Below are positions 38,386-62,215 of a stretch of 64,000 nt of DNA, one piece after another (positions within the stretch are counted from its first letter, which is position 1; every line of letters begins with the position of its first letter). The notes beneath the pieces were generated by a model. It ran no database searches. It was not told where the DNA came from and saw nothing but the letters and a program-made list of their open reading frames with translations. The position numbers were made by a program, and so were the translations under genes. Origin of the DNA: Atopobiaceae bacterium (GTDB lineage Bacteria; Actinomycetota; Coriobacteriia; Coriobacteriales; Atopobiaceae); contig JAUNEG010000006.1 of the NCBI GenBank assembly GCA_030525685.1, forward strand, positions 1-64,000, given 5' to 3'.

Positions 38386-39357
38386 ATGCTCAACATCATC
38401 ATCGCCGCGCTGCTCGCGCTCACCGCGGTGGCGGCGGCGGTCTCCATTGCCCGCTACAACGCGAGGGTCAGGGAGATCAACGCAAGGGTGGCCGAGCGAG
38501 GCTACGGCTCGACGGGGAGGGAGACCCCGGTCGTCTGGGCGCTCGTCCCGCTCGCGGCCGCTGCGGTGGTCCTCGGGCTCGGCTGCCTCTACGCCCAGGA
38601 CGTCGGCGAGGCCGTGGTCAAGGTCAACTTCGGCGGCTCGCTCGCCGGCCACACGACCGAGGCGGGCTTCCACGCCAAGGCGCCCTGGCAGGACGTCACC
38701 AGCTGAGACATCAGGGACCGCCTCATCAACCTCTACCGGGACAACGAGTACAGGTACGACAACGGCAGCTACGACGGCGCCACGGTCACCGTCAGCGACC
38801 AGAGGGGCACCAAGGCCGACGTGGACGTGCAGGTGATCTACTCCATCGACGCCGACTCCGTCGAGCAGCTCTACACCGAGTACAACACGCAGGAGGCCTA
38901 CGTCTCCAACTACGTGTCCAACGACGTCCGCCAGACCGTGCGCGACTGCGCCGGCAACTTCTCGACCATCCAGCTGCTCACCGACCGCGACGCGCTCGCC
39001 AAGTCCATCGGCGACGCGCTGTCGACCCGATGGGAGGGCAAGGGCGTCATCGTCGAGTCCGTGCAGGTGCAGGACGTGCGCTATGCGGACTCCATTACGG
39101 AGGCCTACGCCAACGCCCAGACAGCCGAGATCGAGAAGCAGCGCGCCCTCAACGCCCAGGAGACCGCGAAGGTCGAGGCCGAGACCAAGGCCATCGAGGC
39201 GCAGGGAGAGGCCGACGCCAACGCCATCCTCACGAAGAGCCTGACGCCCGAGGTCCTGCAACAGCGCTACTACGAGACGCTGCGGGACATCGGCGAGGGC
39301 GGCAACCTCGTGCTGCTCCCCGAGGGCTCCGTACCCATCGTCAGCACCACCGAGTAG
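38386..39357 (+). pseudogene. SPFH/prohibitin-like phage protein with in-frame TGA
   Basis: Two membrane spans (IIIAALLALTAVAAAVSIA; VVWALVPLAAAAVVLGLG) lead into an SPFH (band 7) domain: VVKVNFGGSLAGHTTEAGFHA, KADVDVQVIYSIDADSV, then a coiled coil AEIEKQRALNAQETAKVEAE and ILTKSLTPEVLQQRYYETL. A single TGA at 38704-38706 splits it after KAPWQDVTS; the same frame continues as DIRDRLINLYRDNEY. SPFH proteins usually have Trp at this place, so the ancestral codon was probably TGG. The piece after the TGA could restart only at GTG 38821. It is a nonsense mutant, a read-through gene or a sequencing error. Confidence 0.8.
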
Positions 39358-39488
39358 GAACCGACGGCCACAGACCGGCCGTCGCGCATCCGGGCATCCA
39401 CCGGGACGGCGCCATCGGGCGCCGGCAGAGAAATGGCGGCCCCGCGCCTGAGAAACAACGGGCCGCCACCGTCCTGAAAGGAGGACTG

Positions 39489-39632
39489 ATGGCAAGCATA
39501 GCAGAGGCGGCTGGACGCGTGCTCGACGCGCTCGCGGCATGGGTCGAGGAGGAGGGGCACCCCGCGCGGGCCCTCGCCCTCATGGCCCTCATCGCCCTGG
39601 CGGTCACGACTGCTGACGGCTGGTGGCTGTGA
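39489..39632 (+). CDS. Small phage protein with one hydrophobic segment
   Basis: Forty-seven residues (ARALALMALIALAVTTADGWWL ending). AAAGGAGG lies just before ATG 39489, and the stop overlaps the next start (TGATG). Unknown function. Confidence 0.6.
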   Translation: MASIAEAAGRVLDALAAWVEEEGHPARALALMALIALAVTTADGWWL

Positions 39633-39760
39633 TGGGCGGGGCGGAGGGGCGCGCGGCCGCCGAGGCGGCCGAGAGGCTGTTCCTGGAGTGGCTGGTGGAC
39701 GAGTTCCGCCGCGACCGTGAGGCCGCGGAGGCCGACGAGAGAAGGGGAGAGGCGGCGTGA
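39632..39760 (+). CDS. Small acidic phage protein
   Basis: Forty-two residues, helical (AAERLFLEWLVDEFRRDREA). Start and stop both overlap neighbours (TGATG and GTGA), which argues it is translated. Unknown function. Confidence 0.55.
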   Translation: MGGAEGRAAAEAAERLFLEWLVDEFRRDREAAEADERRGEAA

Positions 39761-40026
39761 CGGTTGACCGCAGGGGCCTAAGCGTCATGACCGAGGAGGA
39801 GTACCGCGCCCTCCCCGAGGAGATACGCGGGCCGGACCGGGAGCAGGTGGGCGTCGTGGAGCTCGCGGGCGTCCGCGGGGAGCACGCGCCGAGCACGGTG
39901 AGGGTCGAGTGCCGCCCGGAGCTGCTGAGGAGGACGCACGTGTGGCTCGAGGCGGTGGCCGAGCGAAACGGGTGGACCGGGAGGGTCCGCTCGTGGGTAG
40001 AGGCGGCGGGGAGGCGATCCCGATGA
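39757..40026 (+). CDS. Phage protein of 89 residues, unknown
   Basis: Starts at GTG 39757. Contains TEEEYRALPEEIRGPDREQVGVVELAG and a C-terminal basic helix. Ends in an ATGA overlap with the next gene. No family recognised. Confidence 0.6.
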   Translation: MTVDRRGLSVMTEEEYRALPEEIRGPDREQVGVVELAGVRGEHAPSTVRVECRPELLRRTHVWLEAVAERNGWTGRVRSWVEAAGRRSR

Positions 40027-40256
40027 CCGACGAGATGGCGGAGAGGACGCTCGTGAGCGTGGCCGCGGTCCGCGAGGTCGTGGGCGAGGAGATCCTGCTG
40101 GCGCGCCGCCGCGCCGAGAAGGCGGCCGACACAGGCCACGCCGAGCGGGTCGTCGCCTGACTGAACGCGGCGGACCGCCTCATCGTGGTCTGCGAGCGTC
40201 TGGGCGTCGGGGAGCCGGTGCTGTGCGGCGGGGACGGAATCGAGTGGGAGGACTGA
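40023..40256 (+). pseudogene. Phage early protein with in-frame TGA
   Basis: The first 45 codons (TDEMAERTLVSVAAVREVVG, LLARRRAEKAADTGHAERVVA) end at TGA 40158-40160, but the frame goes on for 31 codons, LNAADRLIVVCERLGVGEP then GGDGIEWED, to a TGA right before the next gene's ribosome-binding region. Reading the first TGA as Trp gives one smooth 77-residue protein. Same lesion type as in the SPFH gene. Confidence 0.65.
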
Positions 40257-44493: not shown

Positions 44494-44781
44494 GTGGACG
44501 TACAGCCGACGCTCTTCCCCGTGCCCGAGCGCGTCCCCGGCCCCATCGAGAGGGCCGTCGTCGAGGGCGACGACCTGGAGGCCATCAACGCTGTCCTCGC
44601 CAAGGTCTCCCGAGCCCTGGACGAGTGCAACTCCGCTCGCGACATCAAGGCGCTCGCCATCACCGTCATCGACGGCGTGGCGAGGCGCCGCGAGCTCGGG
44701 GGCGGGAGGGGTGCCGACGAGGGGCCGAGGCCGCTCGTCAAGGAGGTGATGGGTGAGAGAAGGCTCATGTTCGGGGGCTAG
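44494..44781 (+). CDS. Terminase small subunit-like protein
   Basis: Ninety-five residues, helical (AINAVLAKVSRALDECNSARDIKALAITVIDGVARR). Position between HNH and the large terminase, with a 29-base overlap into the latter, suggests the small subunit. Sequence match is weak. GTG 44494 has AGGAGG upstream. Confidence 0.6.
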   Translation: MDVQPTLFPVPERVPGPIERAVVEGDDLEAINAVLAKVSRALDECNSARDIKALAITVIDGVARRRELGGGRGADEGPRPLVKEVMGERRLMFGG

Positions 44782-46213
44782 GGTTGGCTGCCAGGAACCG
44801 ACGTTCCGCCTCGCCCCCGAGTACCCGGACAGCGAGGGAGACCTCGCCTGCAAGCTCTCGGCGGGCTACGACATGCCGGCCTTCGAGTGGCAGCGCCTCG
44901 TCCTGCGCGACTGGCTGGCCAGAGGCGAGGACGGCAAGCTCGCCTGCCCCACCGCCGGCCTCATGGTCCCTCGCCAGAACGGCAAGAACGCCGTCATCGA
45001 GATCCGCGAGTTCTATGGCATCGCGATCCGCGGCGAGGCGATCCTGCACACCACGCACGAGTACCAGAGCGCCGCCAAGGCCTTCGCGCGCCTGAGATGG
45101 CGCTTCGGAGAGAAGAGGAACGACCCGAACGCGCCCTACAGGGAGCTCAACCGCCTCGTGCGCCGCTACACGCTCTCGGCGGGGCAGATGATCCTGGAGC
45201 TCGAGAACGGCGGCATGATCGAGTTCCGCACGCGCACCGCCGACGGCGGCCGCGGAGGCACCTTCGACGTACTGGTCATGGACGAGGCTCAGCAGCTGAC
45301 CGACAAGCAGAACAAGGCGCTCTCCTCGGTCAACTCGGCGGGCCCGCTCGGGGACTCGCAGACGATTTACGCGGGGACGCCACCGGCGACCGACACGGGC
45401 GCCCTAGTCTTCTCGCGCCTCCATGACGAGGCGGTCTACGACTCCCCGGCGGCCGAGTGCTGGGCGGACTGGTCCGCCAAGGAGATGCCCGAGAGGGACG
45501 ACGTGGAGGCCTGGTACCGCTACAACCCGAGCCTCGGCCTCGTGCTCACGGAGGCGGCGCTCAGGCGCGACGCCTCCTCGATGCTGCCCGAGGACTTCGC
45601 GGTGGAGCACTACGGCTTCTGGCCGCGCGAGGCCCAGTCCAACCCCATCTCCGAGCAGCTGTGGCGGGCGCGCCTCGCCACGGGACCGGCGGACGGCAGG
45701 TTCTGCTACGCCATCAAGTTCGGCGCGGACCGCAGGAGCGTCGCCCTGGCGGGCGGCGTGCGCCCCGCCGACGGCCCGGTGCACGTGGAGCTCATCAGGA
45801 CGCTCTCCTGGGAGGGCTCCATCGACGAGCTGGCCTCTTACATCATGGTTCGTCGCGAGAAGGCCGTGGCGGTCGTGCTCGACGGCATCACCGGCGCGCC
45901 CACGCTCGAGGCGAGGCTCCTCGACGAGGGCTTCCCGGCGCGCAAGCTCATCCGGCCCAACGGCCGGCAGCTGCAGGAGGCCACGAGCAGGTTCTACGAG
46001 GCCGTGAAGAGCGGCCAGATGACCCACGGGCCGGGCGAGCCGCTGGCGGCCTCCGCGTGCGGCTCGATACGACGGCCGATAGGAAAGGACGGCGCCTGGG
46101 CCTTCGGCTCCGCGCCCCAGGCGGACTCGACGCCGATCGAGGCCGCCGCATGGGCGTGGTGGGCCGTCGAGACCAGGGCCAAGAGGAAGGCGAGGAGGGC
46201 GGTGGTCTGGTGA
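44753..46213 (+). CDS. Terminase large subunit
   Basis: ATP-driven DNA packaging motor with nuclease. The 486-residue product has an adenine/Walker A region LMVPRQNGKNAVIEI, Walker B with catalytic Glu FDVLVMDEAQQL, the motif III SAGPLGDSQTIYAGTPP, and a C-terminal RNase H-like nuclease domain beginning near YAIKFGADRRSVALAGG with later acidic residues. Ends in a GTGA overlap with the portal gene. Confidence 0.93.
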   Translation: MREGSCSGARVGCQEPTFRLAPEYPDSEGDLACKLSAGYDMPAFEWQRLVLRDWLARGEDGKLACPTAGLMVPRQNGKNAVIEIREFYGIAIRGEAILHTTHEYQSAAKAFARLRWRFGEKRNDPNAPYRELNRLVRRYTLSAGQMILELENGGMIEFRTRTADGGRGGTFDVLVMDEAQQLTDKQNKALSSVNSAGPLGDSQTIYAGTPPATDTGALVFSRLHDEAVYDSPAAECWADWSAKEMPERDDVEAWYRYNPSLGLVLTEAALRRDASSMLPEDFAVEHYGFWPREAQSNPISEQLWRARLATGPADGRFCYAIKFGADRRSVALAGGVRPADGPVHVELIRTLSWEGSIDELASYIMVRREKAVAVVLDGITGAPTLEARLLDEGFPARKLIRPNGRQLQEATSRFYEAVKSGQMTHGPGEPLAASACGSIRRPIGKDGAWAFGSAPQADSTPIEAAAWAWWAVETRAKRKARRAVVW

Positions 46214-47628
46214 GCGCGATGACGGACATCCCCCAGGCGGTCTCCCGGGCGGCGGGCCTGCGCCCCGAGGACGCCGACCTGGTGCGCGAGCTCCTCGACA
46301 CGTGGCGCCGCAAGCGGCCTCGCAACCTCCTGCGCAGCCGCTACTACGAGATGCACCAGCGGCCGCGCGAGCTCGGCATATCGGTGCCGCCCCACCTGCG
46401 CACGCTCGAGCAGGTGGTGGGCTGGCCCGCAAAGGCGGTGGACGCCCTGGTGGCGCGCAGCCAGTTCGACGGCTACGTGTCCGACGACTCGGGTACCGAG
46501 TCCGAGCTCAGGCGCATCGTGGCCGCCAACGGCCTGCGGTGCGCCTACCGCAAGGCGGCCACCTCCGAGTGCAAGCACTCGTGCGCCTTCGCCACGGTGA
46601 CCGCGGGCGCCTCCGGCCCCGAGGTCCGGTTCCACCCGGCCACGAGCTCGGCGGCCCTGTGGGACTTCTCCCGCAACCGCATCCGGGCGGGCCTCGTGGT
46701 CATGGACTACGGGCGCGGCGCCGGCAGGCCCCACCTGCCCACGTGGGTGGACGTCTTCACGGACTCCGCGGTCATCGTCATCACGCGCGGGCGCGCGGGT
46801 TGGCGCGCCGAGTACCTGTGGCACTCCATGGGGCGCTGCCTCATGGAGTCGCTCGCCTACTCGGCCACTCTGGAGCGCCCGTTCGGCAAGTCCCGCATCA
46901 CGCGCGCCGTCATGAACATCACCGACGACGCGATGCGCGAGAGCGTGCGCTCGGAGATCTCCGCCGAGTTCTTCACGAGCCCGCAGAAGTACCTCCTGGG
47001 CGCCGACAAGGAGGCGCTGGGGGACCAGACGAAGTGGGACGCCTACATCGGCAACATCTTCTCGGTGTCCCGCGACGAGGACAACAACGTCCCGACCTTC
47101 GGGCAGCTCTCCCAGGGCAGCATGCAGCCCCACGTGGACTACATGCGCCAGCTCGCCGCGCGCTTCTCGGGCGAGACGAACGTCCCGGTGTCCAGCCTGG
47201 GCGTGGTCTCGGACAACCCGAGCAGCGCCGAGGCGATCTACGCCGCAAAGGAGGACATGGTCATCGACGCGCAGAACCTCAACGCAGACAACGGCGAGGC
47301 GCTGCGCAACGTGGCCTACATGGCGCTGGCCGTGTCGCGCGGCACCGACTACGCCACCGAGGTCGCCCGCGCGGGCGTCCAGGCGAAGTTCCGCAACCCT
47401 GCCACGCCCTCCGTGGTCTCCCAGGCCGACGCCTGGCTCAAGATCGCGCGGATCGCGCCCTACGTGGCCGAGTCCGACGTCCTGCTCGAGGAGCTGGGGC
47501 TTGGGGACGACCAGATCCAGCGCCTGCGGAGCGCCCGGGCGCGCTCGCAGTCGCGGGCCATCCTCGCCCAGGCGACGCAGACGGCCGGTCTCTCGCTCGG
47601 GCAGACCGGGGGTGGTGAGACGACGTGA
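46210..47628 (+). CDS. Portal protein (SPP1/HK97-like)
   Basis: Dodecameric DNA channel at the capsid vertex. The 472-residue product has PHLRTLEQVVGWPAKAVDALVARSQ at the N-terminus, an internal EYLWHSMGRCLMESLAYSATL region, and the SGETNVPVSSLGVVSDNPSSAEAIYAAKEDM stretch typical of phage portals. Placed right after terminase. GTG 46210. Confidence 0.9.
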   Translation: MSAMTDIPQAVSRAAGLRPEDADLVRELLDTWRRKRPRNLLRSRYYEMHQRPRELGISVPPHLRTLEQVVGWPAKAVDALVARSQFDGYVSDDSGTESELRRIVAANGLRCAYRKAATSECKHSCAFATVTAGASGPEVRFHPATSSAALWDFSRNRIRAGLVVMDYGRGAGRPHLPTWVDVFTDSAVIVITRGRAGWRAEYLWHSMGRCLMESLAYSATLERPFGKSRITRAVMNITDDAMRESVRSEISAEFFTSPQKYLLGADKEALGDQTKWDAYIGNIFSVSRDEDNNVPTFGQLSQGSMQPHVDYMRQLAARFSGETNVPVSSLGVVSDNPSSAEAIYAAKEDMVIDAQNLNADNGEALRNVAYMALAVSRGTDYATEVARAGVQAKFRNPATPSVVSQADAWLKIARIAPYVAESDVLLEELGLGDDQIQRLRSARARSQSRAILAQATQTAGLSLGQTGGGETT

Positions 47629-48902
47629 TCAGCCGCGCGGACTTCGACGCCTACGGGCGCGCGGTCTCGGCCATCACGGACGCGGCTTCGGAGGAGTGCG
47701 AGCGACAGGTCATGACGTGGTGCCGGGCCCACCCGGACGCCACGGTGGCGGAGGCGCGCGAGGCGGCCCGCGAGATCATGGACGGCCTCGCCCAGGTCTA
47801 CGACGAGGCCTCCGCCTCGCTCGCCGCCGAGTGGTACGACGCCCAGGCCTCGGCCGCGGGCGCGCGCCTGCCGGAGGCCGTGACCGTGACCACCTACTCA
47901 CCCGAGCAGGTGGAGCGCGTCGCCCGCTACCAGGCGGCGAAGCTCGTCGCCGGCGACGTGGAGGGGTTCGCCCGCGCGTGCGGGGAGTACCTCGAGAACG
48001 GCGTGAGGCGCAGCCTCAACGAGACCGTGCTCGCCAACGCGAGGCGGGACCGCAAGAGCGGCGTGCGCTTCGCCCGCGTCCCCACGGGCTCGGAGACCTG
48101 CACGTTCTGCGTGATGCTGGCGAGCCGCGGCGCGGTGTACGAGAGCCGCAAGACCGCCGGCGAGTTCGACCACTACCACCGCCGGTGCGACTGCAAGGTC
48201 GTGCCCGGCTTCGAGGACGACAAGTTCGCCGAGGTGGTCGAGGGCTACGACTGCAGGGCCTACTACGACCTCTGGAAGAAGCACGAGAAGCTGGACGCCT
48301 CGGGCATGCCCCAGCGCCAGATCAAGGCCGTCAAGGCCGCGTGGGCGGACGCCATGCTTCCGGCAAACGGCGGGCACATGGAGCCAGAGCGTCTGGCGGA
48401 CCTCTTCGACGACGGCATGGGCTCCGCCGTCAGCGCCTTCCGCAAGGACAGGACCATGGAGGGCTATGAGAGGACGGTCGGCCGCTTCCTCGAGGAGGTC
48501 GGCAGGGCCTACGGGGTCGAGCTGTCCGGCGAGCACTACGTCAACAGGAAGCACAGGGTGGTCGGCGCCGCCCCAGACGGTGATGAGATCTGGGTGATTA
48601 CTCGACTTGGCAGAGGCGGACAGTTCATCTACGCGACCCACGAGAACAAGAGCCCGGACTTCAGGGACGGAGAGTGGCTGCTGGAGATCAAGACTCCAAA
48701 GTCGGAGAGGAAGCTTAACAACCTATTGGTCGAGGCGTCGAGCAAGTTCGCCACATACCCCGAGCGGGAGAAGAGGGCCATCCTGAGCCTTCTTCGGCTT
48801 CCAGACTCGGGTGACGCTGCCAGGGACGCTGCGAGCCGCTTTGTCGACGACGGGACGTTCGACGAGGTTCTGGTCCTGACCAGAGAGGGGTTCGTCTCAT
48901 AA
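47625..48902 (+). CDS. MuF-type minor head protein with nuclease-like C-terminal domain
   Basis: Residues 1-~230 are a MuF/VG15-type head morphogenesis domain with the Cys/His cluster TCTFCVMLASRGAVY...FDHYHRRCDCKVVPGF. After a helical linker the last ~110 residues look separate: GQFIYATHENKSPDFRDGEWLLEIKTPKS has the D...E-x-K spacing of PD-(D/E)XK nucleases, as in CdiA-type toxin ends. Codon choice is also less GC-rich there. MuF proteins carrying polymorphic toxins are known in temperate phages. No immunity gene is apparent; a tRNA-Leu follows instead. Confidence 0.8.
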   Translation: MISRADFDAYGRAVSAITDAASEECERQVMTWCRAHPDATVAEAREAAREIMDGLAQVYDEASASLAAEWYDAQASAAGARLPEAVTVTTYSPEQVERVARYQAAKLVAGDVEGFARACGEYLENGVRRSLNETVLANARRDRKSGVRFARVPTGSETCTFCVMLASRGAVYESRKTAGEFDHYHRRCDCKVVPGFEDDKFAEVVEGYDCRAYYDLWKKHEKLDASGMPQRQIKAVKAAWADAMLPANGGHMEPERLADLFDDGMGSAVSAFRKDRTMEGYERTVGRFLEEVGRAYGVELSGEHYVNRKHRVVGAAPDGDEIWVITRLGRGGQFIYATHENKSPDFRDGEWLLEIKTPKSERKLNNLLVEASSKFATYPEREKRAILSLLRLPDSGDAARDAASRFVDDGTFDEVLVLTREGFVS

Positions 48903-48906
48903 GAGA

Positions 48907-48955
48907 GGAGGACGATACTCTGCCCAGGTTCCTAACCCGGGGGGTGTTCGTCCTC
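48907..48955 (+). promoter_or_regulatory. Hairpin between the MuF gene and tRNA-Leu
   Basis: GAGGACGA (from 48907) pairs with TCGTCCTC (to 48955) with a large loop. It may aid RNA processing before the tRNA. A TATACC hexamer just before the tRNA might be its own -10 box. Both readings are tentative. Confidence 0.4.
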
Positions 48956-48975
48956 TATTGATAAGTATACCCAAC

Positions 48976-49062
48976 CGGGGCGTGGCGGAAACGGCAGACG
49001 CGCGTGTCTCAGGAGCACGCGGGCGTGCGCCCGTGCGGGTTCGAGTCCCGCCGCCCCGACCA
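48976..49062 (+). tRNA. tRNA-Leu(CAG), prophage-encoded
   Basis: Acceptor CGGGGCG/CGCCCCG (unusual C1:G72), D-stem GCG/CGC, anticodon stem CGTGT/GCACG with loop CTCAGGA giving CAG, a long variable arm with GGGCG/CGCCC, T-arm GCGGG-TTCGAGT-CCCGC, discriminator A and encoded CCA. All class II tRNA-Leu parts are present. It lies inside the late structural operon, so RNase P must release it. Confidence 0.93.
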
Positions 49063-51447: not shown

Positions 51448-52227
51448 GTGGGCGCCGACGGCGGGGGCGACGCCCCGCTCGCCACGCTCGAGGGCTACGA
51501 GCGGCGCTACGGAGCGCCGACCGAGCCCGACCGGGTGAGCGCCCTGCTCGCCGACGCCTCCGACGCCCTGCTCTCCGAGTACGAGCTGTACTGGGGCGAG
51601 CCGTGGGCCGCGGGCGCCCACCCGGCGTTCGACCGCTCGGCCGAGGCCGTGTGCTGCGCGGTGGTCCGGCGCGCCGTGGCCACGGAGGGGTCCCTGCCGG
51701 GCGCGACGCAGCTCAGCCAGGGCGCCGGGGACTACACCGCCTCCGTCACGCTCGCGAGCCCGGGGGGCGACCTCTACGTCGGCAAGTCCGACCGCCGCCG
51801 CCTCGGGCTCGCGGGCTGCCGCGTGGGCAGCATCCGGCCCATGACGGCGGCGGACCGGGAGGGGGGAGCGATGACGTCGATGCCCGACCTCGGCCTCATC
51901 CGGGGCGAGACGGTCACCGTGCGAACGCCGGCAAAGGGCCACGACGAGCACATGGAGGAGGTCGTGACGTGGGAGGAGGCCGTCGTGGAGAACGTCGTGG
52001 TCACCCCCGGCGCGACCTCCGACGTGCTCGACACGGCGCGACCGGACGGCACGCGCGTGGCCTTCACGCTCGGCTTCCCAAAGACCTTCGCGGAGCCGCT
52101 TCGTGGCTGTCACGTGCTCGTGCGCGGCATCGAGTGCGCCGTCATAGGAGACCCGCAGCCGTACACGGCCGAGAACACGCCGGGGGCGCACAACCTCACG
52201 GCCGAGGTGGCGAGGGTCGATGGCTAG
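51448..52227 (+). CDS. Head-tail connector, probable fusion of two small genes
   Basis: The first ~140 residues (TLEGYERRYGAPTEPDRVSALLADASDALLSEY...) resemble a head-tail adaptor (gp6/gp15 type). The last ~115 (MTSMPDLGLIRGETVTVRTPAKG...VLVRGIECAVIGDPQPYTAENTP) resemble a head-closure/stopper protein. The junction carries an internal ATG with a GGGGGGAGCG site (near 51871), so two proteins may still be made. Most relatives encode these separately. Confidence 0.65.
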   Translation: MGADGGGDAPLATLEGYERRYGAPTEPDRVSALLADASDALLSEYELYWGEPWAAGAHPAFDRSAEAVCCAVVRRAVATEGSLPGATQLSQGAGDYTASVTLASPGGDLYVGKSDRRRLGLAGCRVGSIRPMTAADREGGAMTSMPDLGLIRGETVTVRTPAKGHDEHMEEVVTWEEAVVENVVVTPGATSDVLDTARPDGTRVAFTLGFPKTFAEPLRGCHVLVRGIECAVIGDPQPYTAENTPGAHNLTAEVARVDG

Positions 52228-52498
52228 CGGGGTCCGCGTCAGGATCAACAGCTCAGGGGCGCGTGCCCTGCTGACGGACCCGGCCGTCGCGGCCGACCTC
52301 ATGGCCCGCGCCGAAGCCATCGCCGGCAGCGCGTGCGCCAAGGCCTCACCCGACGAGATGAGGAACGACCCCTTCACCGCCGTGGACGCATCGACGGCGG
52401 GCCGTGCGCGCGTGCGTGTGGTCACGTCGTCTCCGCACGGCATCAGGTCCCAGAACAGGGACAACACGCTCTTGAAGAGCGTGGACGCGGGGAGGTGA
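52220..52498 (+). CDS. Minor tail / HK97 gp10-like protein
   Basis: Ninety-two residues, starting inside the previous 3' end. Position and the basic C-terminal GIRSQNRDNTLLKSVDAGR suggest an HK97 gp10-like tail completion protein. The sequence match is weak. Confidence 0.55.
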   Translation: MASGVRVRINSSGARALLTDPAVAADLMARAEAIAGSACAKASPDEMRNDPFTAVDASTAGRARVRVVTSSPHGIRSQNRDNTLLKSVDAGR

Positions 52499-52502
52499 GC
52501 GC

Positions 52503-52853
52503 ATGGACGCCGAGCGCGCCTGCGTGGACTACCTGAACGGCGCCGACGTGGGCGCGACCGCCTACTACGACGTGCCGAACCCGCGCCCGAGCCCCCTCGT
52601 GGTCGTGGAGCGCACCGGCGGCGGGAGGGGAGAGGGGGCGACGTCGCGACCCACCCTCGACGCGCAGTGCTGGGCGCCGACGCGCCGCGGGGCCGCCCTG
52701 CTCGCCCGGGCTGTGGAGGACGCGCTCCTCGACATGCCGGCGGGCGTCGCCGGGGTGACGCACGTGACCATCAGCTCGACCTTCCGGGACCGCGACCTAG
52801 AGAGCGGGACGCCCCGCTATCACGTGGTCTTCGAGATCTACAGCAACGTCTGA
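52503..52853 (+). CDS. Tail terminator-like protein
   Basis: A 116-residue protein: ACVDYLNGADVGATAYYDVPNPRPSPLVVVERTGG, TLDAQCWAPTRRGAALLARAVEDAL, and YHVVFEIYSNV at the end, the pattern of gpU/DUF3168-like tail terminators. Directly before the major tail gene. Confidence 0.7.
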   Translation: MDAERACVDYLNGADVGATAYYDVPNPRPSPLVVVERTGGGRGEGATSRPTLDAQCWAPTRRGAALLARAVEDALLDMPAGVAGVTHVTISSTFRDRDLESGTPRYHVVFEIYSNV

Positions 52854-52857
52854 CACC

Positions 52858-52878
52858 GGCCCCGCGAGGGGCCTCTTT
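52858..52878 (+). terminator. Intrinsic terminator inside the late operon
   Basis: GGCCCC-GCGA-GGGGCC followed by TCTTTC, between the tail terminator gene and the major tail gene. The U tract is weak. Confidence 0.6.
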
Positions 52879-52895
52879 CGTAAGGAGGGGCGATC

Positions 52896-53480
52896 ATGCC
52901 CGAGAGCAAGACCAACAACACCAAGAACGCGAGCTACGCGAAGTTCAAGAAGGGGGCCTACTTCTTCGTCGCGCCCTACGGGGCTCCCCTGCCGACCGAC
53001 AACTCCACGGAGCTCGACGCCGCCTTCAAGAACATGGGCTTCATGGGGAACGGCGGCTTCGTCTTCTCCAGCAGCTCGAGCACCAACACCGGCCGGGACG
53101 CCAACGGGGACGCCATCGCCACCTCCGCGGGCGAGGTCGAGAAGACGCTCCAGTGCGTCTTCCGCGAGCTCAAGGCGGCGGGCATGAAGGTGGTCTACGG
53201 CCAGGACAACGTCACCGACGAGAACGGCGTCCTCACCGTCCACGACAAGGGGCCGAACTCCGAGGTCTACTCCGGAGTCATCGAGGCCCTGCTCGACGAC
53301 GGCCGAAAGGACCGCAAGGTCATCCCGCAGATGGTGCCCAACCAGCTGGGCTCCGAAACCATGAGCTACACCGAGCTCGTGGGCAAGGACATGACCTTCG
53401 CCGTCCTGCTCGACGGAGAGCTGGGCGACTACTACGTTGACTACATCGACAGCACCGAGACCGCCGCGGCGGACGAGTAA
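52896..53480 (+). CDS. Major tail protein
   Basis: A 194-residue protein with YAKFKKGAYFFVAPYGAPLPTD, KTLQCVFRELKAAGMKVVYGQ and SGVIEALLDDGRKDRKVIPQMV, compatible with siphovirus tail tube subunits. Upstream of the frameshifting chaperone pair and tape measure, the standard order. AAGGAGGGG precedes the start. Confidence 0.8.
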   Translation: MPESKTNNTKNASYAKFKKGAYFFVAPYGAPLPTDNSTELDAAFKNMGFMGNGGFVFSSSSSTNTGRDANGDAIATSAGEVEKTLQCVFRELKAAGMKVVYGQDNVTDENGVLTVHDKGPNSEVYSGVIEALLDDGRKDRKVIPQMVPNQLGSETMSYTELVGKDMTFAVLLDGELGDYYVDYIDSTETAAADE

Positions 53481-53490
53481 GGGGGAGGAC

Positions 53491-53787
53491 ATGGAGGAGA
53501 AGCCCAAGGGCACGACCGTCGAGGTGGACGGCATCGAGGTCACGGTGGCGCTCGACCCCGCGAACGACTACGAGCTCGTGGAGTGCGCCGTCATCGCGAA
53601 CGACCCCGCGCGTACCGTCGAGGAGCAGAACCGCGCCTACGTCCGCCGCGTCCGCCTCATCCTCGGCGACGCCCACGACCGCGTGATGCGCGAGCTGCGC
53701 GAGGCGCACGGCGGCGAGCTCGAGCCCGCCACCGTCGCCGACTTCGTGGCGCGCGTCACCGCGAGGGTGGCCGAGGCAAAAAACTAG
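53491..53787 (+). CDS. Tail assembly chaperone (gpG-like), frameshift site at its end
   Basis: A 98-residue protein (TTVEVDGIEVTVALDPANDYELVE...) that ends GCA AAA AAC TAG. The heptamer A AAA AAC at 53778-53784 is a classical -1 slippery site. A -1 shift enters the next frame at KKLAGLGRAIALHEG, producing a fused gpGT protein. Confidence 0.88.
   Translation: MEEKPKGTTVEVDGIEVTVALDPANDYELVECAVIANDPARTVEEQNRAYVRRVRLILGDAHDRVMRELREAHGGELEPATVADFVARVTARVAEAKN
53778..53784 (+). promoter_or_regulatory. -1 frameshift slippery heptamer AAAAAAC
   Basis: Reads A AAA AAC in the gpG frame, immediately before the TAG stop. Shifting back by one joins gpG to the downstream reading frame. Confidence 0.88.
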
Positions 53788-54182
53788 CGGGTCTCGGCCG
53801 GGCCATCGCCCTCCACGAGGGCGAGGTCCGCGCCGACCTCATGCGCTTCTACGGCGTCTCGCTCGACGGGGCGGGGTCCGCCTACTCGTGGAGGGACTGC
53901 GCGGCGATGGTGGCACACCTGCCCTCCGAGAGCGCGCTCAGGCGCGCGGAGGGCGACGGGTGGAGCGAGGCCGAGCGCCTGCTCGCCCTGATCGCCGACA
54001 ACACCTCCGTCATCCGCTGGCAGCCGACCGACCACAACCTCCCGGGCAACGCCGAGCCGGCGAGGTGCCGCTCCCCGCGCGAGCGGGAGCTCGCGGCCGA
54101 GCGGGCGGCCGAGGACACATACACCGAGAAGGACATGGACGACATCGCCGAGATGCTCGGCATCCCCGAGGGCAGGAGGTAG
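53785..54182 (+). CDS. gpT part of the tail chaperone (made by -1 frameshift)
   Basis: Has no start of its own; it is reached by slipping at 53778-53784 and is given here from the first shifted codon region. The product carries EGEVRADLMRFYGVSLDGAGSAYSWRDCAAMVAHLPSESAL and TYTEKDMDDIAEMLGIPEGRR. In siphoviruses the gpGT fusion binds the tape measure, which is the next gene. Confidence 0.85.
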
Positions 54183-54185
54183 CGC

Positions 54186-57100
54186 ATGGCCGACGGCATC
54201 GAGCTCGCGAGTGCCTACGTCACACTGGTACCGTCCCTCAAGGGCGCAGCCAAGAGCATAGACTCCCAGCTGTCCGGCATCGACCTGTCGAGGAGCGGCG
54301 CGCGCATGGGGGCATCCCTCTCGAGCGCCATGGGGAAGTCGATAAGGACGGACGCCCTGAAGCCCCTCCTCGCCTCCGTGCGGAGCGCGGAGAGGGAGGT
54401 GGACAGGTCCTACCGCAGAATGGCCAATGCGTCCGGCGAGGTCGAGGTCGCACAGAGGCGGCTCTCCGAGGCGGTCGCGAAGTACGGCGGGGACTCGTCG
54501 CAGGCCGCCCAGGCTCAGCTGGACCTCGAGCGGGCCCAGCAGCGGCTGAGCGACGCGGCCGGCGCCGCGGAGGCCGCGCACACGCGCCTGGCCGACGCCC
54601 AGGAGGCCGTCGCGGCCGCCTCGGCCGGTCTCGGCGACGACCTGGACGCGCAGTCCCGCCGCCTTGCGACCCTCTCCGAGAGGGCGGAGGCAGCCGGCAG
54701 GAGCCTCGAGTCCATCGGCTCCGGGCTCTCGGGGGCCGGAAAGTCCATCGCGGGCGTCGGCGACAGGCTCACGGCGGGCGTCACCGTGCCGCTGGCCGGC
54801 GCGGCCGCCGCCGCCGGGGCCTTCGCGCTCAGGACCGCGAGCGCCGCCGAGACCACCGAGATCTCCTTCACCACCATGCTGGGCAGCGAGGAGGCCGCCC
54901 TCTCCATGATGGAGGAGCTGGCCGACTTCGCCGCGCACACGCCCTTCGAGCTGTCCGGCCTCCAGACGGCCACGCGCCAGCTGCTCGCCTACGGCTTCAC
55001 CGCGGGGGACGTCATCCCGATGCTCACCGCCGTCGGCGACGCAACGGCGGCGCTCGGCACCGGGCAGGCGGGCATCGAGTCCGTCACGCGCGCGCTCGGC
55101 CAGATGCAGACGCGCGGCAAGGTCTCCGCCGAGGAGATGCTGCAGCTCACCGAGGCCGGAATCCCCGCGTGGGAGTACCTCGCCCGCGCCATCGGCACCG
55201 ACACCGCCGGGGCCATGGAGAAGGTCACCGACGGGGCCGTGTCCGCCTCCGAGGGCATCGCCGCCATCACGGCGGGCATGCGCGAGGACTTCGGCGGCAT
55301 GATGGAGGAGCAGTCCAGGACCGTCGAGGGGCTCTTCTCCAACCTCACGGACGCAATCGAGCGGCCGCTGATGAAGCTGCGCGAGAGCGACGCCTACGAG
55401 CGGTTCGCCGAGTCGCTCTCAGGCGTGGTCGACGCCGCCGGGCCATTCGTCGAGTCCCTGCTACCGCACATGGAGAGCGGGCTCGACGCGGTCTCCGGCG
55501 TGCTCGACGCCGCGACCGACGCCATGGAGGGCTTCTCGTCCATGAGCGAGGAGTCCCAGGCGCAGGTGCTCGGGCTCGTCGCCGCCGCGGCAGGCGTGGG
55601 GCCCGCGATGTCCGTCGGCGGCCGAGCCATGGAGAGGGTCGGCGACGCGACGAGGGCCGCGGGCAAGGCGCTGCCGTCGCTCTCGAAGTCCCTCACCTCG
55701 CTCGGCGAGACCTTCGGGTGGTCGTCCGGCGAGTCCACGGCGCTCGGGACGGCCCTCTCGGCCATCCCGGGACCGGCGAAGCTCGCGGCCGCCGCCGTCG
55801 GCGTCGTGCTGCTCTCCGGCGTCGCCAGTTATGTGGATTGGGCCACGAAGGCCGACCGCGAGGCACGGGTCCAGGCCGAGGCCATGGACGTGCTCGCGGG
55901 CGCCTCGGAGACCGCCGGCGCCGCCATGTCACAGGCTTCTGACGGACCGCGCCTGCTCGGGACCGAGATCTACAACCTAGGCGAGGACATACAGGAGAAC
56001 TGGCAGTCCATCGCGGACCTCGGGTCCGCGTTCGACGAGATAGACGCCAAGGCGTCCGCCCAGGTGACGCAGCTCTCGGCGGCGAGGACCGCCATCGCCG
56101 ACTACAACGGTCAGACGGACCTCTCCGCCCAGCAGCTCGGCAGCTTCCAGGCCGCCATCGAGACGCTGAACGAGAGGTGTGGGACCAACTACGAGGTCGT
56201 GAAGGACGCGGGCGGCGCGTACTGCGTCATGCGGGACGGCGCGAAGGTCGCGGCAGACGAGCTCTACGAACTCATCGACGCCCAGATGGCGCAGGCGCAG
56301 GTCTCCGCGCAGATGGAGAAGCTGGAGTCGCTCTACGCCGAGCAGGCCGAGCAGGCGCAGGAGTACGCCGAGGCCGTGCAACAGGTCGCGGACGCCCAGG
56401 CGGCCTACGACGAGGCGCTGTCGAAGTATGGCGAAATCGGCTCGAGCTGGGCGCTCGACGACCTCAACGAGGCGAAGGCCAGCCTCGCCGAGGTCGAGGA
56501 TCAGATGGGCGCCACGGCCGAGGCGACCGACGCCGTGGAGGAGTCCATCGGCAACCTCACCGCCGCGTCCCGGGGCGCGGTCGAGGGCTTCGACGCCCTC
56601 GTGCAGGGCAGCGGTTCGCTCAACAGCTTCTTCTCCGAGACCGGCGGCTCCATGGACGAGTTCGCCGACGACCTTGAGGCCTCCGGCGTCTCGCTGGAGG
56701 AGTTCTCGGCCATGGGGCAGGACGAGCTGCTCAGGCTCGCCGGTGCGTGGGACGGCACCGAGCAGTCGATCGCTGACTCCTTGAGGAGCATGGGGCACGA
56801 GGTCGAGGCGTACAACGACGTGCCGCTGAACGACAAGGACGCGGCCGCCACGATCGACGACAGCTCCCTCGTGGACGCCCAGGGCAACCTCTACACGTGG
56901 GACGGCTCCGTGCTCATCGACCAGCACGGGAACGCAGTGGTGGACGACGTGAGCCTGACCGACGCCCAGGGCAACCTGTGGACGTGGAACGGATCCAGCC
57001 TGCTCGACAAGGACGGAAACGCCCACATCGGCGGCAACCTCTCCACGGCCCTCGCACAGGCGGAGAAGTGGAGGAGCCTGCCGCACAACCTCGGAAGCAA

Positions 57101-57497
57101 GGTCGCGTCCATCACGACATCGATAACGAACGTGACCAAGAACCTGGTCTCGACGGTCTTCTCCCGCAACGCGGCCGGCGGCATCCGCCTCAACGCGGCC
57201 GGCGGCATCCGGGCGCACGCCGACGGCGGCGTCATCGCGACCCGCGCGGTCCCGCTCGACATCGTGGGCGAGGACGGGGCCGAGGCGATCGTGCCGCTCA
57301 CGAACCGGCGCTACAGCCAGCCCTTCGCCGACCTCATCGCGGAGGGGGTGGCGCGCGAGGCGGGGCGCGGCGGCGACACCTACCAGGTCTACGTCGACGG
57401 CTCAGCGATCGCGGTGGACGGCCGCATCGCGCAGGCCCTCTCCGCGCTGCTCGGCGCGGTGGAGCGCAGATACGACATGGGAGGGGCGGTGGCGTAG
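54186..57497 (+). CDS. Tape measure protein
   Basis: Sets tail length. The 1103-residue product has a coiled-coil N-terminus (VRSAEREVDRSYRRMANASGEVEVAQRRLSEAV), then the conserved TMP domain TTEISFTTMLGSEEAALSMM, DVIPMLTAVGDATAAL, AEEMLQLTEAGIPAWEYLA. Hydrophobic segments and more coiled coils follow. It ends with the NAAGGIR repeats and VGEDGAEAIVPLTN. By the usual ~1.5 angstrom per residue, a tail of about 165 nm is expected. Confidence 0.93.
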   Translation: MADGIELASAYVTLVPSLKGAAKSIDSQLSGIDLSRSGARMGASLSSAMGKSIRTDALKPLLASVRSAEREVDRSYRRMANASGEVEVAQRRLSEAVAKYGGDSSQAAQAQLDLERAQQRLSDAAGAAEAAHTRLADAQEAVAAASAGLGDDLDAQSRRLATLSERAEAAGRSLESIGSGLSGAGKSIAGVGDRLTAGVTVPLAGAAAAAGAFALRTASAAETTEISFTTMLGSEEAALSMMEELADFAAHTPFELSGLQTATRQLLAYGFTAGDVIPMLTAVGDATAALGTGQAGIESVTRALGQMQTRGKVSAEEMLQLTEAGIPAWEYLARAIGTDTAGAMEKVTDGAVSASEGIAAITAGMREDFGGMMEEQSRTVEGLFSNLTDAIERPLMKLRESDAYERFAESLSGVVDAAGPFVESLLPHMESGLDAVSGVLDAATDAMEGFSSMSEESQAQVLGLVAAAAGVGPAMSVGGRAMERVGDATRAAGKALPSLSKSLTSLGETFGWSSGESTALGTALSAIPGPAKLAAAAVGVVLLSGVASYVDWATKADREARVQAEAMDVLAGASETAGAAMSQASDGPRLLGTEIYNLGEDIQENWQSIADLGSAFDEIDAKASAQVTQLSAARTAIADYNGQTDLSAQQLGSFQAAIETLNERCGTNYEVVKDAGGAYCVMRDGAKVAADELYELIDAQMAQAQVSAQMEKLESLYAEQAEQAQEYAEAVQQVADAQAAYDEALSKYGEIGSSWALDDLNEAKASLAEVEDQMGATAEATDAVEESIGNLTAASRGAVEGFDALVQGSGSLNSFFSETGGSMDEFADDLEASGVSLEEFSAMGQDELLRLAGAWDGTEQSIADSLRSMGHEVEAYNDVPLNDKDAAATIDDSSLVDAQGNLYTWDGSVLIDQHGNAVVDDVSLTDAQGNLWTWNGSSLLDKDGNAHIGGNLSTALAQAEKWRSLPHNLGSKVASITTSITNVTKNLVSTVFSRNAAGGIRLNAAGGIRAHADGGVIATRAVPLDIVGEDGAEAIVPLTNRRYSQPFADLIAEGVAREAGRGGDTYQVYVDGSAIAVDGRIAQALSALLGAVERRYDMGGAVA

Positions 57498-57500
57498 GGC

Positions 57501-59717
57501 ATGGCATCGAAGTACACGAGCGTCGTCTACATCCAGGGCAACTCCCGCCGCCGCTATCGTGGCTACATGAGCGCGACGGTGTCGAACATCAGCGCCACCC
57601 AGTCCCGCGTGGACTGGTACGCCAGCGTCGAGATGTACAACGCGTCGCAGTACGGTGTCGCGGTGACCTGCACCGTGGACGGCACCCAGCGCGGAAGCGA
57701 CGAGGGCTACCTCTCGTCCAGCCCCGGCACGACCTACAAGACCGTCGCGTCCACATCCGGGTCCACGACCCTCTCGCGCGGCTCCTCGTCGCGCAGCGTG
57801 AGCGTGACGGTGCTCGCCTACGGAAAGACCGTCTCAGGCTACGGCTCGGCGGGAGGCTCCGCGTCGGCGACGGTCTCCGTGACCATCCCGTCCATCGCCT
57901 ACAGCGCCCCCAACGTGCCGTCCTCGTGCGCGGCGTCGCGCGTCTCCGACATGCAGGCCAAGGTGACGTGGGCCAACGGCTCCACGAGCACGACGAGGCC
58001 CCGCTCCGCGACGCTCGTCGAGCGCCAGACGGACGGGGGCGCGTGGTCGCAGATTGCGTCGGTGGGCGCGTCGGTGACCAACTACATCGACAACTCGCTC
58101 TCGCCCAACCACCGCTACGCCTACCGCGCGCGCGCCAAGGGCGCGGGCGGCAGCTCCTCATACGCGACCTCCGGCCACGTCTACACCACGCCCGCCGCCC
58201 CCGCGTCCGTCTCGGTCACGGTCGCGACCGGCACGACGTGCTCGGTGGACGTGGACGGCTCCAACGCCCCGTGGGCGCAGTCGTGGGAGGTGCAGTCGCA
58301 GCTCGACGGCGGCGGGTGGGTGGCCGTCGGCACGTATGCGACCTTCCCGCAGACCGTGGACCTCGGCGGCGGCACCGTCAGGGTGCGCGCGCGGGCGGTG
58401 CGCGGCGACCTCGCGTCTGCCTACGTCGAGAGCGCCGCCGTAACCACCATCACGCCGCCGCTCGCCCCGACCGTCTCGCTCTCGCCCTCGGGCGTCGCGC
58501 CGACGGGATCAGTGGTCGAGGTCTCGTGGGTGCCCAACCACCCCGACGGCTCCGCGCAGACGCAGGCGCAGGTGGAGTACGCGGTCGGCGACGGCGAGCC
58601 CGTCACCGCCGACGTGACCGGCGCCGCCACGACCTACCAGCTCCCCGCCGACGCCACCACGAGCGCCACGACCGTCTCGGTCTGCGTGCGCACGCACGGC
58701 GCCGACGAGGAGTGGGGCGCGTGGTCGCAGCCGGTCGCGCTCGCCGTGGCGGTCCCGCCGTCTGCGCACCTCACGTCGCCCGCCTCAGACGGCGCGACCG
58801 TGGACGCCCTTCCGCTCGTGGTCGAGTGGGAGGCGACCGACGCGACCGGCGTCGCGTCGCAGACCCTCACGCTCTACGGCGAGGACGGGCACGCCCTGCA
58901 CGCCGCCCAGCTCGGCGGCGACGCGCGGTCCTACCCGCTCTCGGCGGCGACCTACCGCCTCGACAACAAGAGCTCCTACTCGCTCTCGCTGCTCGTGCGC
59001 GGCGGATCGACGCTCACGGCCACCGCCACGCGCGACTTCGCGACCGACTTCACGCCGCCCGCAGACCCCGTGGTCGCGGTCGAGCTGGACCCCGACACGC
59101 TCGCCCAGTCGGTCACCGTCGAGTACGGCGAGGAGGGGGGCGCGCCGCCGACCGTGGCCGTGGACGTGGTGCGCCGCACCGACGACGGCTCGACGTGGCT
59201 CGTGCAGGGCGACGTGGCCGACGGCGAGACCGTCGTGGACCCGCTCCCGCCGCTCGTCGTCGTGTACTGGTACGACGTGACGGCGACGGCAGAATCCGGC
59301 GCGCAGGCCACCGTGACCGTCGAGGCACAGGCGGTCGCCGAGGTCGGGGCCTTCAACTTCGGCGCGGCGGCGGGGGAGTGCGTGCTCGCGCGCCTCGACC
59401 CCGACTGGAGGCACGACGTGGCGCGCTCCGGCACGCTCTACCACTTCGCCGACGGCGGCGAGGGCGGCGGGCTGCCGGTCGCCTACGGCGGGCAGGACGT
59501 GGACGCGACGCGGAGCATGGGCTTCACGCTGCTCGACACCGGGCAGCTGAGACGCCTGCAGGCGCTGGCGCGCGAGCACTTCGTCTGCTGGTACCGCGAC
59601 CCATACGGCGGGCGCGCGCTGTGCGCCGTGGACTGGTCCTTCTCGTCCGGCGTCCCCTACGACCGGCTCACGGTCTCCGCGAGCATGACCGAGACCGTCT
59701 TCGAGGAGGCCTGGTAG
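57501..59717 (+). CDS. Distal tail/baseplate protein with fibronectin-like repeats
   Basis: A 738-residue secreted-looking structural protein. Residues 1-130 form a beta-rich N-terminal region; several FnIII-like units follow (APNVPSSCAASRVSDMQAKVTW, AAPASVSVTVATGTTCSVDV, LAPTVSLSPSGVAPTGSVVEVSW), and the end has YGGQDVDATRSMGFTLLDTGQLRRLQALAREHFVCWYRDPYGGRAL. It likely contacts the host wall or builds the tail tip. Confidence 0.75.
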   Translation: MASKYTSVVYIQGNSRRRYRGYMSATVSNISATQSRVDWYASVEMYNASQYGVAVTCTVDGTQRGSDEGYLSSSPGTTYKTVASTSGSTTLSRGSSSRSVSVTVLAYGKTVSGYGSAGGSASATVSVTIPSIAYSAPNVPSSCAASRVSDMQAKVTWANGSTSTTRPRSATLVERQTDGGAWSQIASVGASVTNYIDNSLSPNHRYAYRARAKGAGGSSSYATSGHVYTTPAAPASVSVTVATGTTCSVDVDGSNAPWAQSWEVQSQLDGGGWVAVGTYATFPQTVDLGGGTVRVRARAVRGDLASAYVESAAVTTITPPLAPTVSLSPSGVAPTGSVVEVSWVPNHPDGSAQTQAQVEYAVGDGEPVTADVTGAATTYQLPADATTSATTVSVCVRTHGADEEWGAWSQPVALAVAVPPSAHLTSPASDGATVDALPLVVEWEATDATGVASQTLTLYGEDGHALHAAQLGGDARSYPLSAATYRLDNKSSYSLSLLVRGGSTLTATATRDFATDFTPPADPVVAVELDPDTLAQSVTVEYGEEGGAPPTVAVDVVRRTDDGSTWLVQGDVADGETVVDPLPPLVVVYWYDVTATAESGAQATVTVEAQAVAEVGAFNFGAAAGECVLARLDPDWRHDVARSGTLYHFADGGEGGGLPVAYGGQDVDATRSMGFTLLDTGQLRRLQALAREHFVCWYRDPYGGRALCAVDWSFSSGVPYDRLTVSASMTETVFEEAW

Positions 59718-59718
59718 C

Positions 59719-60819
59719 GTGGCCGACTGGACGCGCCGCTTCGACGCGGCCTACCGCTTCATGCGCGTGTCCCGCGCCACCGGCTACGAGACGGAGCGCC
59801 TGTCCGGCTTCGAGCGGGGCGGCACCATCGAGCGCAACCTCGACACGGAGGCCAAGGAGAGCGGGATCGTCGGCCACGTCGGCGCCCTCGACCTCGGGGC
59901 CGACCTCGTGCGCGTGTGGCTGGACGCGACCTTCCCGGACGGCTCGACGGAGAGCGTGGCGCTGGGGACCTTCCTCGCGTCCACGACCTCGCGGGCCTAC
60001 GACGGCATGGCGTCCACCGTCACCGTCAAGCTCGCCGGGCGGCTCTCGGAGCTCTCCGCCACCCAGTTCGCCCAGCCGTTCTACCTGCCCGCCGGGACGA
60101 ACCTCGTGGCATACGCCGCGCAGATAGCGCAGTCCTGCGGCCTCTCGGTGGACGCGGACCCCAGCGACTACGTCTCGACGGAGGCTCTGTACTACGGCAT
60201 CCAGAGCGGCGAGCAGAAGGCCTCGACGCAGAGCCAGACCAAGCTGGCGGTCATCAACGACCTGCTCGACCGCGCGGGCTTCGACAGCGCCCGCACCGAC
60301 CCCTACGGGACCGTCCTCATGCGGCGATCGCAGGGCGTGGCGGACCGCGCGCCCTCGTGGGGCTTCGCGGAGGGCAGGAACGCCCGCTTCCTGCGCTCCG
60401 CCACCGACGAGCGCGACACGACCGGCGTGGCGAACGTGGTCTACGCCGTCCACGCGGGCGCGGAGAAGGAGGGCGGCGAGCAGGTGACCACCATCGGCGT
60501 GGCCACCGACGACGACCCCGCCTCCCCGTGGTCCACCGCGTCCCTGGGCCGCGAGATAGTGGCGCGCTACGACTACAGCGAATACGCGACGCAGACCGCA
60601 GCCGACGCCAAGGCGGCGGAGCTGCTGGCGTCCGCGCGCTCGGTCCTGCGGCGCGTCACGCTCAGCCACGTGTATGCGCCCGTGACCATAGGCGACGCCG
60701 TGCGCGTGGACTACCGCAGCGCTGGCACCACCGAGACGCTGGCCGCCCGCACGCAGCGCATCACGCTCGGCGACGGCTGCCTGACCGAGACGGAGGCGAG
60801 GGCCTATGAGCGCGCCTAG
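59719..60819 (+). CDS. Tail tip/baseplate protein
   Basis: A 366-residue protein: RFMRVSRATGYETERLSGFERGGTIERNL, LAGRLSELSATQFAQPFYLPAGTNLVAYAAQIAQSCGL, YGIQSGEQKAS, ending in LSHVYAPVTIGDAVRVDYRSAGTTETLAARTQRITLGDGCLTE. Resembles gp27/tail-associated hub-like proteins of siphoviruses. GTG 59719. Confidence 0.7.
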   Translation: MADWTRRFDAAYRFMRVSRATGYETERLSGFERGGTIERNLDTEAKESGIVGHVGALDLGADLVRVWLDATFPDGSTESVALGTFLASTTSRAYDGMASTVTVKLAGRLSELSATQFAQPFYLPAGTNLVAYAAQIAQSCGLSVDADPSDYVSTEALYYGIQSGEQKASTQSQTKLAVINDLLDRAGFDSARTDPYGTVLMRRSQGVADRAPSWGFAEGRNARFLRSATDERDTTGVANVVYAVHAGAEKEGGEQVTTIGVATDDDPASPWSTASLGREIVARYDYSEYATQTAADAKAAELLASARSVLRRVTLSHVYAPVTIGDAVRVDYRSAGTTETLAARTQRITLGDGCLTETEARAYERA

Positions 60820-61444
60820 CCCGCTGCCGGAGGGCGTGCGCAGAGACCTGGAGCGCATGGCCGGGCCGCTCGCCGAGCGGATGCTGCCGCCCAAGGTGAC
60901 GCAGAGCGCCACCACGCGAAACGTGGTCGCCGCCGTCAACCCCGACGGCACCGTGGACGTGATGATGGGCGGCGCGGTCATGCAGCACGTGCCCGCCACG
61001 ACCGCGTGCGTCGGCGTGGCGGTGGGGGACGAGGTCATCGTCGAGCAGTACGGGCCGCGTCTCTACTGCGTCGGCGTGATCGCGAAGTCACTCGATACCC
61101 GCGCTTATGTGATCGAGGACTTCGGCCCGTTCGAGCCATACGCGTCCAACACCCGGCCCACGGTCTACCGCTGCGGGGGCGTCGTCTCGCTCGTAGGAGC
61201 GTGCAGGCCGACGCGGACCATCGAGGCGGGCGGCTCCGGCGTGCTCTTCTACCTGCCGGAGTGGGCGCGGCCGCCGCAGGCGGTCGTAGCCCAGTGCCAG
61301 GGCTCGCAGACGCGGAAGTGGGCGCTCGCGATCGCCGCCGCCGGAGACGTGACCATGAGCCGCTACTGCGAGGGGTCGACGGACGTCCCGTGCCACACGA
61401 ACAACTGGTTGCCGCTCGCTGCGACGTGGGTCGTCGGCGGCTAG
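60806..61444 (+). CDS. Baseplate/receptor-region protein, unknown
   Basis: A 212-residue protein with an OB-like middle (NVVAAVNPDGTVDVMMGGAVMQHVPATTACVGVAVGDEVIVEQYG) and a beta-rich C-terminus. Position after the tail hub suggests a tail fibre or receptor-binding subunit. No closer match recognised. Confidence 0.55.
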   Translation: MSAPSPLPEGVRRDLERMAGPLAERMLPPKVTQSATTRNVVAAVNPDGTVDVMMGGAVMQHVPATTACVGVAVGDEVIVEQYGPRLYCVGVIAKSLDTRAYVIEDFGPFEPYASNTRPTVYRCGGVVSLVGACRPTRTIEAGGSGVLFYLPEWARPPQAVVAQCQGSQTRKWALAIAAAGDVTMSRYCEGSTDVPCHTNNWLPLAATWVVGG

Positions 61445-61463
61445 GCGGGAGAGGGGGACGCGC

Positions 61464-61817
61464 ATGGAGTGGATGACCGTGGCGGGGTGGCTCGCGGGGC
61501 CGGTGGCCGCCGCGCTCATAGCGTGGCTCGGCGCGAGCCTGCGGGCGGCGCGCAGGCGCTCCGCCGAGCACGACCACCGACGCGACGCCGAGCACGCCGC
61601 GCTCATGGCCGGCATGCGCGAGCTGATGCGCCGCGAGCTCTACGACATGCACAGGACATACGTCGTGGACGGCTCGCCCATGCCCTACGACGAGAAGGAG
61701 CGGGCGGACAGCGTCTACTCCGTCTATCACGCGCTCGGCGGCAACGGCACGGGCACGCACGTGCACGAGGAGCTTTTGGCCGCCTACGTGGGCGGCAGGA
61801 AGGGGGACGGATGCTGA
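61464..61817 (+). CDS. Small membrane-anchored phage protein
   Basis: A 117-residue product with one N-terminal membrane span (VAGWLAGPVAAALIAWLGASL), then a basic helical region and YDMHRTYVVDGSPMPYDEKERADSVYSVYHALGGNGTG. Similar to small proteins next to holins; may assist lysis. Overlaps the next gene by seven bases. Confidence 0.6.
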   Translation: MEWMTVAGWLAGPVAAALIAWLGASLRAARRRSAEHDHRRDAEHAALMAGMRELMRRELYDMHRTYVVDGSPMPYDEKERADSVYSVYHALGGNGTGTHVHEELLAAYVGGRKGDGC

Positions 61818-62215
61818 CGGGGGAGATTCTGGGCGGCGTGCTGGTCGTGTCGCCCGACGGCGCGGGTAAGCCCATCGTCGAGACGGCCATGCCAGAGCCG
61901 CCCGACGGATACGAGATGGAGGCGAGCTGACGGGACGACGGCTCGCGCATCGTGCAGACGTGGACCGCCGTGCCCGTCGAGGGCAGCGTGGACGACGCGG
62001 TGCGCACGCTGGCGCGGATGCTCGCGCGCGACCTTACCGACGAGCAGGCCGTGGCCGTCGAGGCGCTCTACGACGAGTGGGCGGTCGGCGCGGAGTACGA
62101 CAAGGCCGACCGCGCCCTCGACGCGGGCTACCTGTACTGCTGTAAGAAGAAGCACACGGCGCTCGCGGAGTGGAGGCCGTCCACCGACGGCGAGCACTGG
62201 GTGAAGCTGGGCTAG
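61811..62215 (+). pseudogene. Tail-end phage protein with in-frame TGA
   Basis: Forty codons (MLTGEILGGVLVVSPDGAG, PIVETAMPEPPDGYEMEAS) end at TGA 61928-61930. The same frame continues RDDGSRIVQTWTAVPVEGS... for 94 codons to a proper stop before the holin. Small phage proteins of this type usually read ...GY..(x)SW.DDG.xIVQTW..., so Trp is expected at the TGA. The second half could begin at GTG 61952. Third gene in this prophage with the same kind of interruption. Confidence 0.7.

Follow-up and report, generated by a model that had tools for sequence, protein, structure and literature searches.

The prophage and its three interrupted genes

The stretch of DNA analyzed here, the first 64,000 nucleotides of a contig from an Atopobiaceae bacterium (the window), contains a prophage that begins at position 31,696 and extends slightly beyond the window, with host genes resuming after 64 kb. 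Its limits were given by an exact repeat search, which returned a 13-bp direct repeat, CGGGCTACCAACC, one copy of which lies at the 3′ end of a tRNA-Glu(CTC) gene (31696-31708), while the other lies 49-61 bases past the window end. The features of the locus are as follows:

31651 to 33126, minus strand: large serine integrase, intact (phrog_95, E=9e-88; Resolvase and Recombinase domains)
31696 to 64000 in the window and to 64061 overall, no strand: prophage, bounded by the 13-bp direct repeat
38386 to 39357, plus strand: SPFH/Band-7 phage gene of 323 codons, interrupted by a TGA (Pfam Band_7, E=3.6e-29; phrog_200, E=1.3e-48)
38704 to 38706, plus strand: in-frame TGA in the SPFH gene, codon 107
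40023 to 40256, plus strand: small early phage gene of 77 codons, interrupted by a TGA (weak match to phrog_9121)
40158 to 40160, plus strand: in-frame TGA in the 40023 gene, codon 46
44753 to 61444, plus strand: packaging, head, and tail genes, intact (terminase, portal, protease, scaffold, capsid, connectors, tail tube, tape measure, tail, receptor-binding)
48976 to 49062, plus strand: tRNA-Leu(CAG) of the prophage
61811 to 62215, plus strand: late phage gene of 134 codons after the tail module, interrupted by a TGA (weak CBM_5_12-like C-terminus)
61928 to 61930, plus strand: in-frame TGA in the 61811 gene, codon 40

The large serine integrase gene adjoins the apparent att site at the 3′ end of the tRNA-Glu gene; tRNA genes are rarely used as sites by serine integrases. 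Close to the integrase, the minus strand carries a gene for a protein with a DprA/SLOG domain (33940-34863). The gene for tRNA-Leu(CAG) is located within the packaging/head module, between the protease and scaffold genes, and has a normal anticodon loop (U33, CAG, G37). The endolysin gene was also found to be intact, as were all recognized core genes, and the three genes that carry a TGA are accessory. No close relative of the prophage was detected by its terminase in IMG/VR or in GTDB contigs, and a megablast search of the prophage against phages returned only an 84-bp match in the capsid gene.

An earlier note on this DNA had reported a single in-frame TGA in each of three prophage genes and no frameshifts in the others, and both observations held. 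The TGAs are present at 38704, 40158, and 61928. Each is flanked by sensible protein on both sides, and the frames run on to a TAG in the SPFH and 61811 genes and to a TGA in the 40023 gene. A census of codon usage across the six reading frames of the window returned no convincing internal stop besides these three TGAs; its other matches were gene junctions and one antisense shadow. Frame segmentation of the region from 31.6 to 64 kb detected no frameshift in the prophage genes.

The comparison with homologs proposed in the note was carried out, and a stop at the same site was absent from every homolog aligned. As the homologs read on through the site, the stops are derived; in the SPFH and 61811 genes, this derived stop lies in an otherwise alignable gene. 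The note had also supposed that all three TGAs arose from TGG, which the homologs bear out for these two genes. In the two closest relatives of the SPFH gene (59 and 63% identity), TGG occupies the exact codon, while the other close homologs encode Tyr at this site and one encodes Phe. The part of the SPFH gene downstream of the TGA shows no sign of drift, with 50-63% identity to its relatives in an almost gap-free alignment. For the 61811 gene, Trp is found at the site in four of the six homologous copies, and tandem copies at one locus have Tyr and Leu. The sole homolog of the 40023 gene, a weak one, has a gap at the TGA site, so that Trp at 40158 is a guess.

Uniformity of the in-frame stops

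No internal TGA was found in 400 kb of other host contigs, sampled as stretches of the genome's contigs (~106,500 codons, including 1,016 TGG). The census matches in this sample consisted of junctions between genes, a frame that is probably antisense, and a single TAG that may be internal to a gene. The latter, the only such candidate in the 400 kb, lies in a host gene on the minus strand (L108:6664), where the frame would read ADDAAT-stop-DDVDARLSALQSAYDG. Around other prophages of the family, no clear internal TGA was found in ~500 kb either, corresponding to 142,862 codons, a count that includes some host flank and leaves out four low-GC genomes, for which the codon model failed. The stop counts from the portal search were excluded, as these were largely genuine gene ends.

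With 3 TGA to 148 TGG in the prophage and 0 to 1079 in the sampled host genes, the difference gave p=0.002, and 3 TGA in 9,234 prophage codons against none clear in 142,862 gave p=0.0002; both are after-the-fact tests on a feature that had been picked by eye beforehand. Expected nonsense spectra were calculated from the codon usage of the prophage with mutation rates of our own assumption. Under such an assumed GC-to-AT-biased spectrum, TGA would account for 23% and the TGG-to-TGA change for 14% of the nonsense mutations expected, and three out of three would be expected with a probability of ~1% and ~0.3%, respectively. A transitions-only spectrum, on equally assumed rates, gave ~3% for three out of three TGA and ~2% for three out of three TGG-to-TGA. 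Expectations of 1-3% and 0.3-2% favor a filter for UGA, and the bias is indeed suggestive of some such filter; it is not strong for a feature that was noticed by eye.

Termination at UGA and its possible decoding in the host

A UGA-decoding tRNA, one of the explanations offered in the earlier note, found no backing in the genome. The tRNA set, as determined with ARAGORN on the window and from the RF00005 places of the genome, was standard, and none of the 48 tRNA-bearing loci scanned contained a UCA anticodon; nor was any match to the tRNA-Sec model RF01852 found over the cut-off in the genome. As the genome is ~93% complete, a missing tRNA is still conceivable. The tRNA-Leu of the prophage was considered as a suppressor and rejected: when its loop, CUCAGGA, is slid to read UCA, it loses U33 and stem pairing, which leaves it as tRNA-Leu(CAG).

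The only tRNA-Trp has the anticodon CCA and carries A9 and G24. Two changes of tRNA-Trp are known that turn it into a UGA suppressor, and the A9/G24 form present here is without them (PMC13092985). The same tRNA-Trp sequence occurs in 14 other genomes of the family, and its anticodon stem consists of five pairs, with a G27-U43 wobble on top. A UGA-to-Trp recoding of the code 4 type, of phage or genome, was rejected, given three in-frame UGAs in the prophage and none in the ~106,500 host codons. UGA also still serves as the stop of 24 of the 47 genes called in the prophage and of 81 of the 324 host genes, and tRNA-Trp is found only with CCA.

The note had also suggested looking for an altered release factor 2 (RF2). 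The RF2 gene of the genome itself (prfB) is intact, and the codon-recognition motif of its product reads SPT where SPF is canonical; the change is order-wide and only indirectly relevant to the lesions. The genome and its 29 nearest relatives share the motif SPTDxKKRRQTTF, as opposed to the SPF...HTSF type, and SPT was found in the RF2 of every family and genome of Coriobacteriales sampled. Among the other Actinomycetota shown, RF2 carries SPF in 11 of 12 and SPY in one. Termination by the RF2 of Bacillus subtilis was abolished by changing SPF to SPT (PMC6881298). At a GC content of ~70%, the host genes end in TAG 197 times and in TGA 81 times, whereas 20-kb stretches of SPF-bearing, GC-rich Actinomycetota contained 45 TAG and 69 TGA stops (p about 1e-8, with phylogeny ignored). 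The SPT motif and the preference for TAG could mean that UGA is leakier here. The RF2 observation is a more promising lead than the TGAs of the prophage.

In one genome of the same family (G093, locus L253), the RF2 gene, encoded on the minus strand, has an in-frame TGA of its own ~25 codons in (LHVDE-stop-RAEVARLEQ). This is near the position of the UGA of the autoregulatory frameshift in E. coli RF2, yet the zero frame continues. This TGA may be a lesion, an error, or a site of autoregulatory read-through.

These features raise the possibility of a UGA that is ambiguous at the level of the lineage, in which the SPT form of RF2 would weaken termination and the three TGAs would act as slow Trp codons, read at a useful rate by tRNA-Trp. 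The order-wide SPT motif and the loss of termination upon the same change in the RF2 of B. subtilis, the preference for TAG, and the G27-U43 wobble, located where a lack of pairing in the stem increases the reading of UGA (PMC13092985), are all consistent with this scenario. We nevertheless regard it as unlikely. In-frame TGAs are absent from the sampled host codons, and none is clear near the other prophages; UGA ends a quarter of the host genes and half of the prophage genes, and relatives without such lesions have the same RF2 and the same tRNA-Trp. As the SPT motif is found throughout the order and the prophages of relatives are without such lesions, RF2 cannot by itself explain lesions that are confined to a single prophage. 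The reading for the entire order, with UGA partly ambiguous between stop and Trp throughout the Coriobacteriales because of SPT, and phages carrying it as a slow Trp codon in low-product genes, is a quite doubtful proposition.

Origin of the stops and comparison with known systems

Taken together, the results favor ordinary nonsense mutations over a novel genetic code or a programmed form of read-through. On balance, we consider it fairly probable that accessory genes of this siphovirus prophage, which is otherwise intact, have acquired three TGG-to-TGA nonsense mutations, perhaps tolerated owing to leakage. The set of TGAs is real and unusual in its uniformity, and most likely consists of ordinary prophage lesions. 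Of the four readings set out in the earlier note, we still prefer that of a mutational process, or of prophage decay.

By this account, separate G-to-A changes would have converted TGG to TGA in three accessory and presumably dispensable genes of the resident prophage. UGA would act as a stop in the host cell, and the main products would be cut at 106, 45, and 39 residues. UGA is known to be leaky, with Trp being inserted (PMC7918605), and its read-through has been put at at least 0.1-1% (PMC4989110). UGA leaks more than the other stops and is misread as Trp by the ordinary tRNA-Trp(CCA), so that the native full-length protein may still arise at a low level. As the leak inserts Trp, the native residue would be regained only at Trp sites. 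Such leak-through may explain why only the TGA type of lesion survived. We infer that the mutations are recent, that the third site also encoded Trp, and that low-level read-through softens the lesions. In-frame stops are commonest in the COG category of phages and transposons (PMC7918605). Against prophage decay, which would be expected to bring frameshifts and TAG lesions as well, neither of these was found beside the three TGAs, other prophage regions of the family have no comparable lesion, and the downstream halves of the genes, as in SPFH, show no sign of drift.

A sequencing or assembly artefact was also considered, in which the three G-to-A differences of the draft contig would be rare variants or errors of the consensus. 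In favor of it, each of the three is a single-base change of the same type, and the genome is an incomplete draft of 49 contigs. The ~31 kb of host DNA in the same contig and the 400 kb sampled elsewhere contain no such error, however, and no indels were found, which makes this explanation improbable.

A localized burst of G-to-A changes on the prophage, through deaminase-like activity or strand-biased damage, would account for the same change at three out of three sites, each in the context C-TG-A; CTGG makes up only about one third of the TGG contexts in the prophage genes. We give it little credence, though, as TGG-to-TAG and CAG-to-TAG changes, although equal targets, are both absent, the TGAs are followed by different bases (G, C, and C), and no deaminase was recognized among the genes scanned. 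A methyl-C hotspot of the Dcm type was rejected, as the three sites do not fit.

The programmed UGA read-through that the note had put forward, or selenocysteine insertion, either of which would yield a short and a long product, is very improbable: UGA followed by C, a weakly terminating context, is found at two of the three sites, but TGAC also occurs at 11 of the 24 normal TGA stops of the prophage, the in-frame stops are missing from all homologs, RNA structure 3′ of the UGAs was not stronger than in shuffles (z of -0.2, -0.2, and -1.2), and besides the lack of a tRNA-Sec over the cut-off, close homologs have W, Y, F, or L at the site.

If the three TGAs are plain lesions, as we favor, the three genes mark the start of decay of this prophage, and gene callers should report three interrupted genes rather than six short genes. 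Should UGA be leaky in the order, the case would tie together an atypical release factor, a bias toward TAG stops, and tolerated UGA lesions.

Three kinds of known system invite comparison. Bacteria with UGA recoded to Trp (PMC13092985) and code-switched phages (PMC8629427, PMC10746230) likewise have UGA for Trp inside genes; the prophage described here differs from these in having 3 UGA to 148 UGG, UGA as a common stop, an RF2, and no tRNA-Trp(UCA). The natural leak of UGA through tRNA-Trp in E. coli, Salmonella, and B. subtilis (PMC7918605, PMC4989110) resembles the present case in the UGA at a Trp position, the tRNA-Trp(CCA), and the lack of a dedicated suppressor, while the host RF2 here differs in its recognition motif, and read-through is putative. 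Finally, like the nonsense lesions and pseudogenes known from resident prophages (PMC7918605), the set described here consists of single in-frame stops in phage genes, with intact flanking frames, that are missing from homologs. It differs in that each stop is a TGA, at a site where Trp is proven or likely, and in the lack of any accompanying TAG, TAA, or frameshift lesion.
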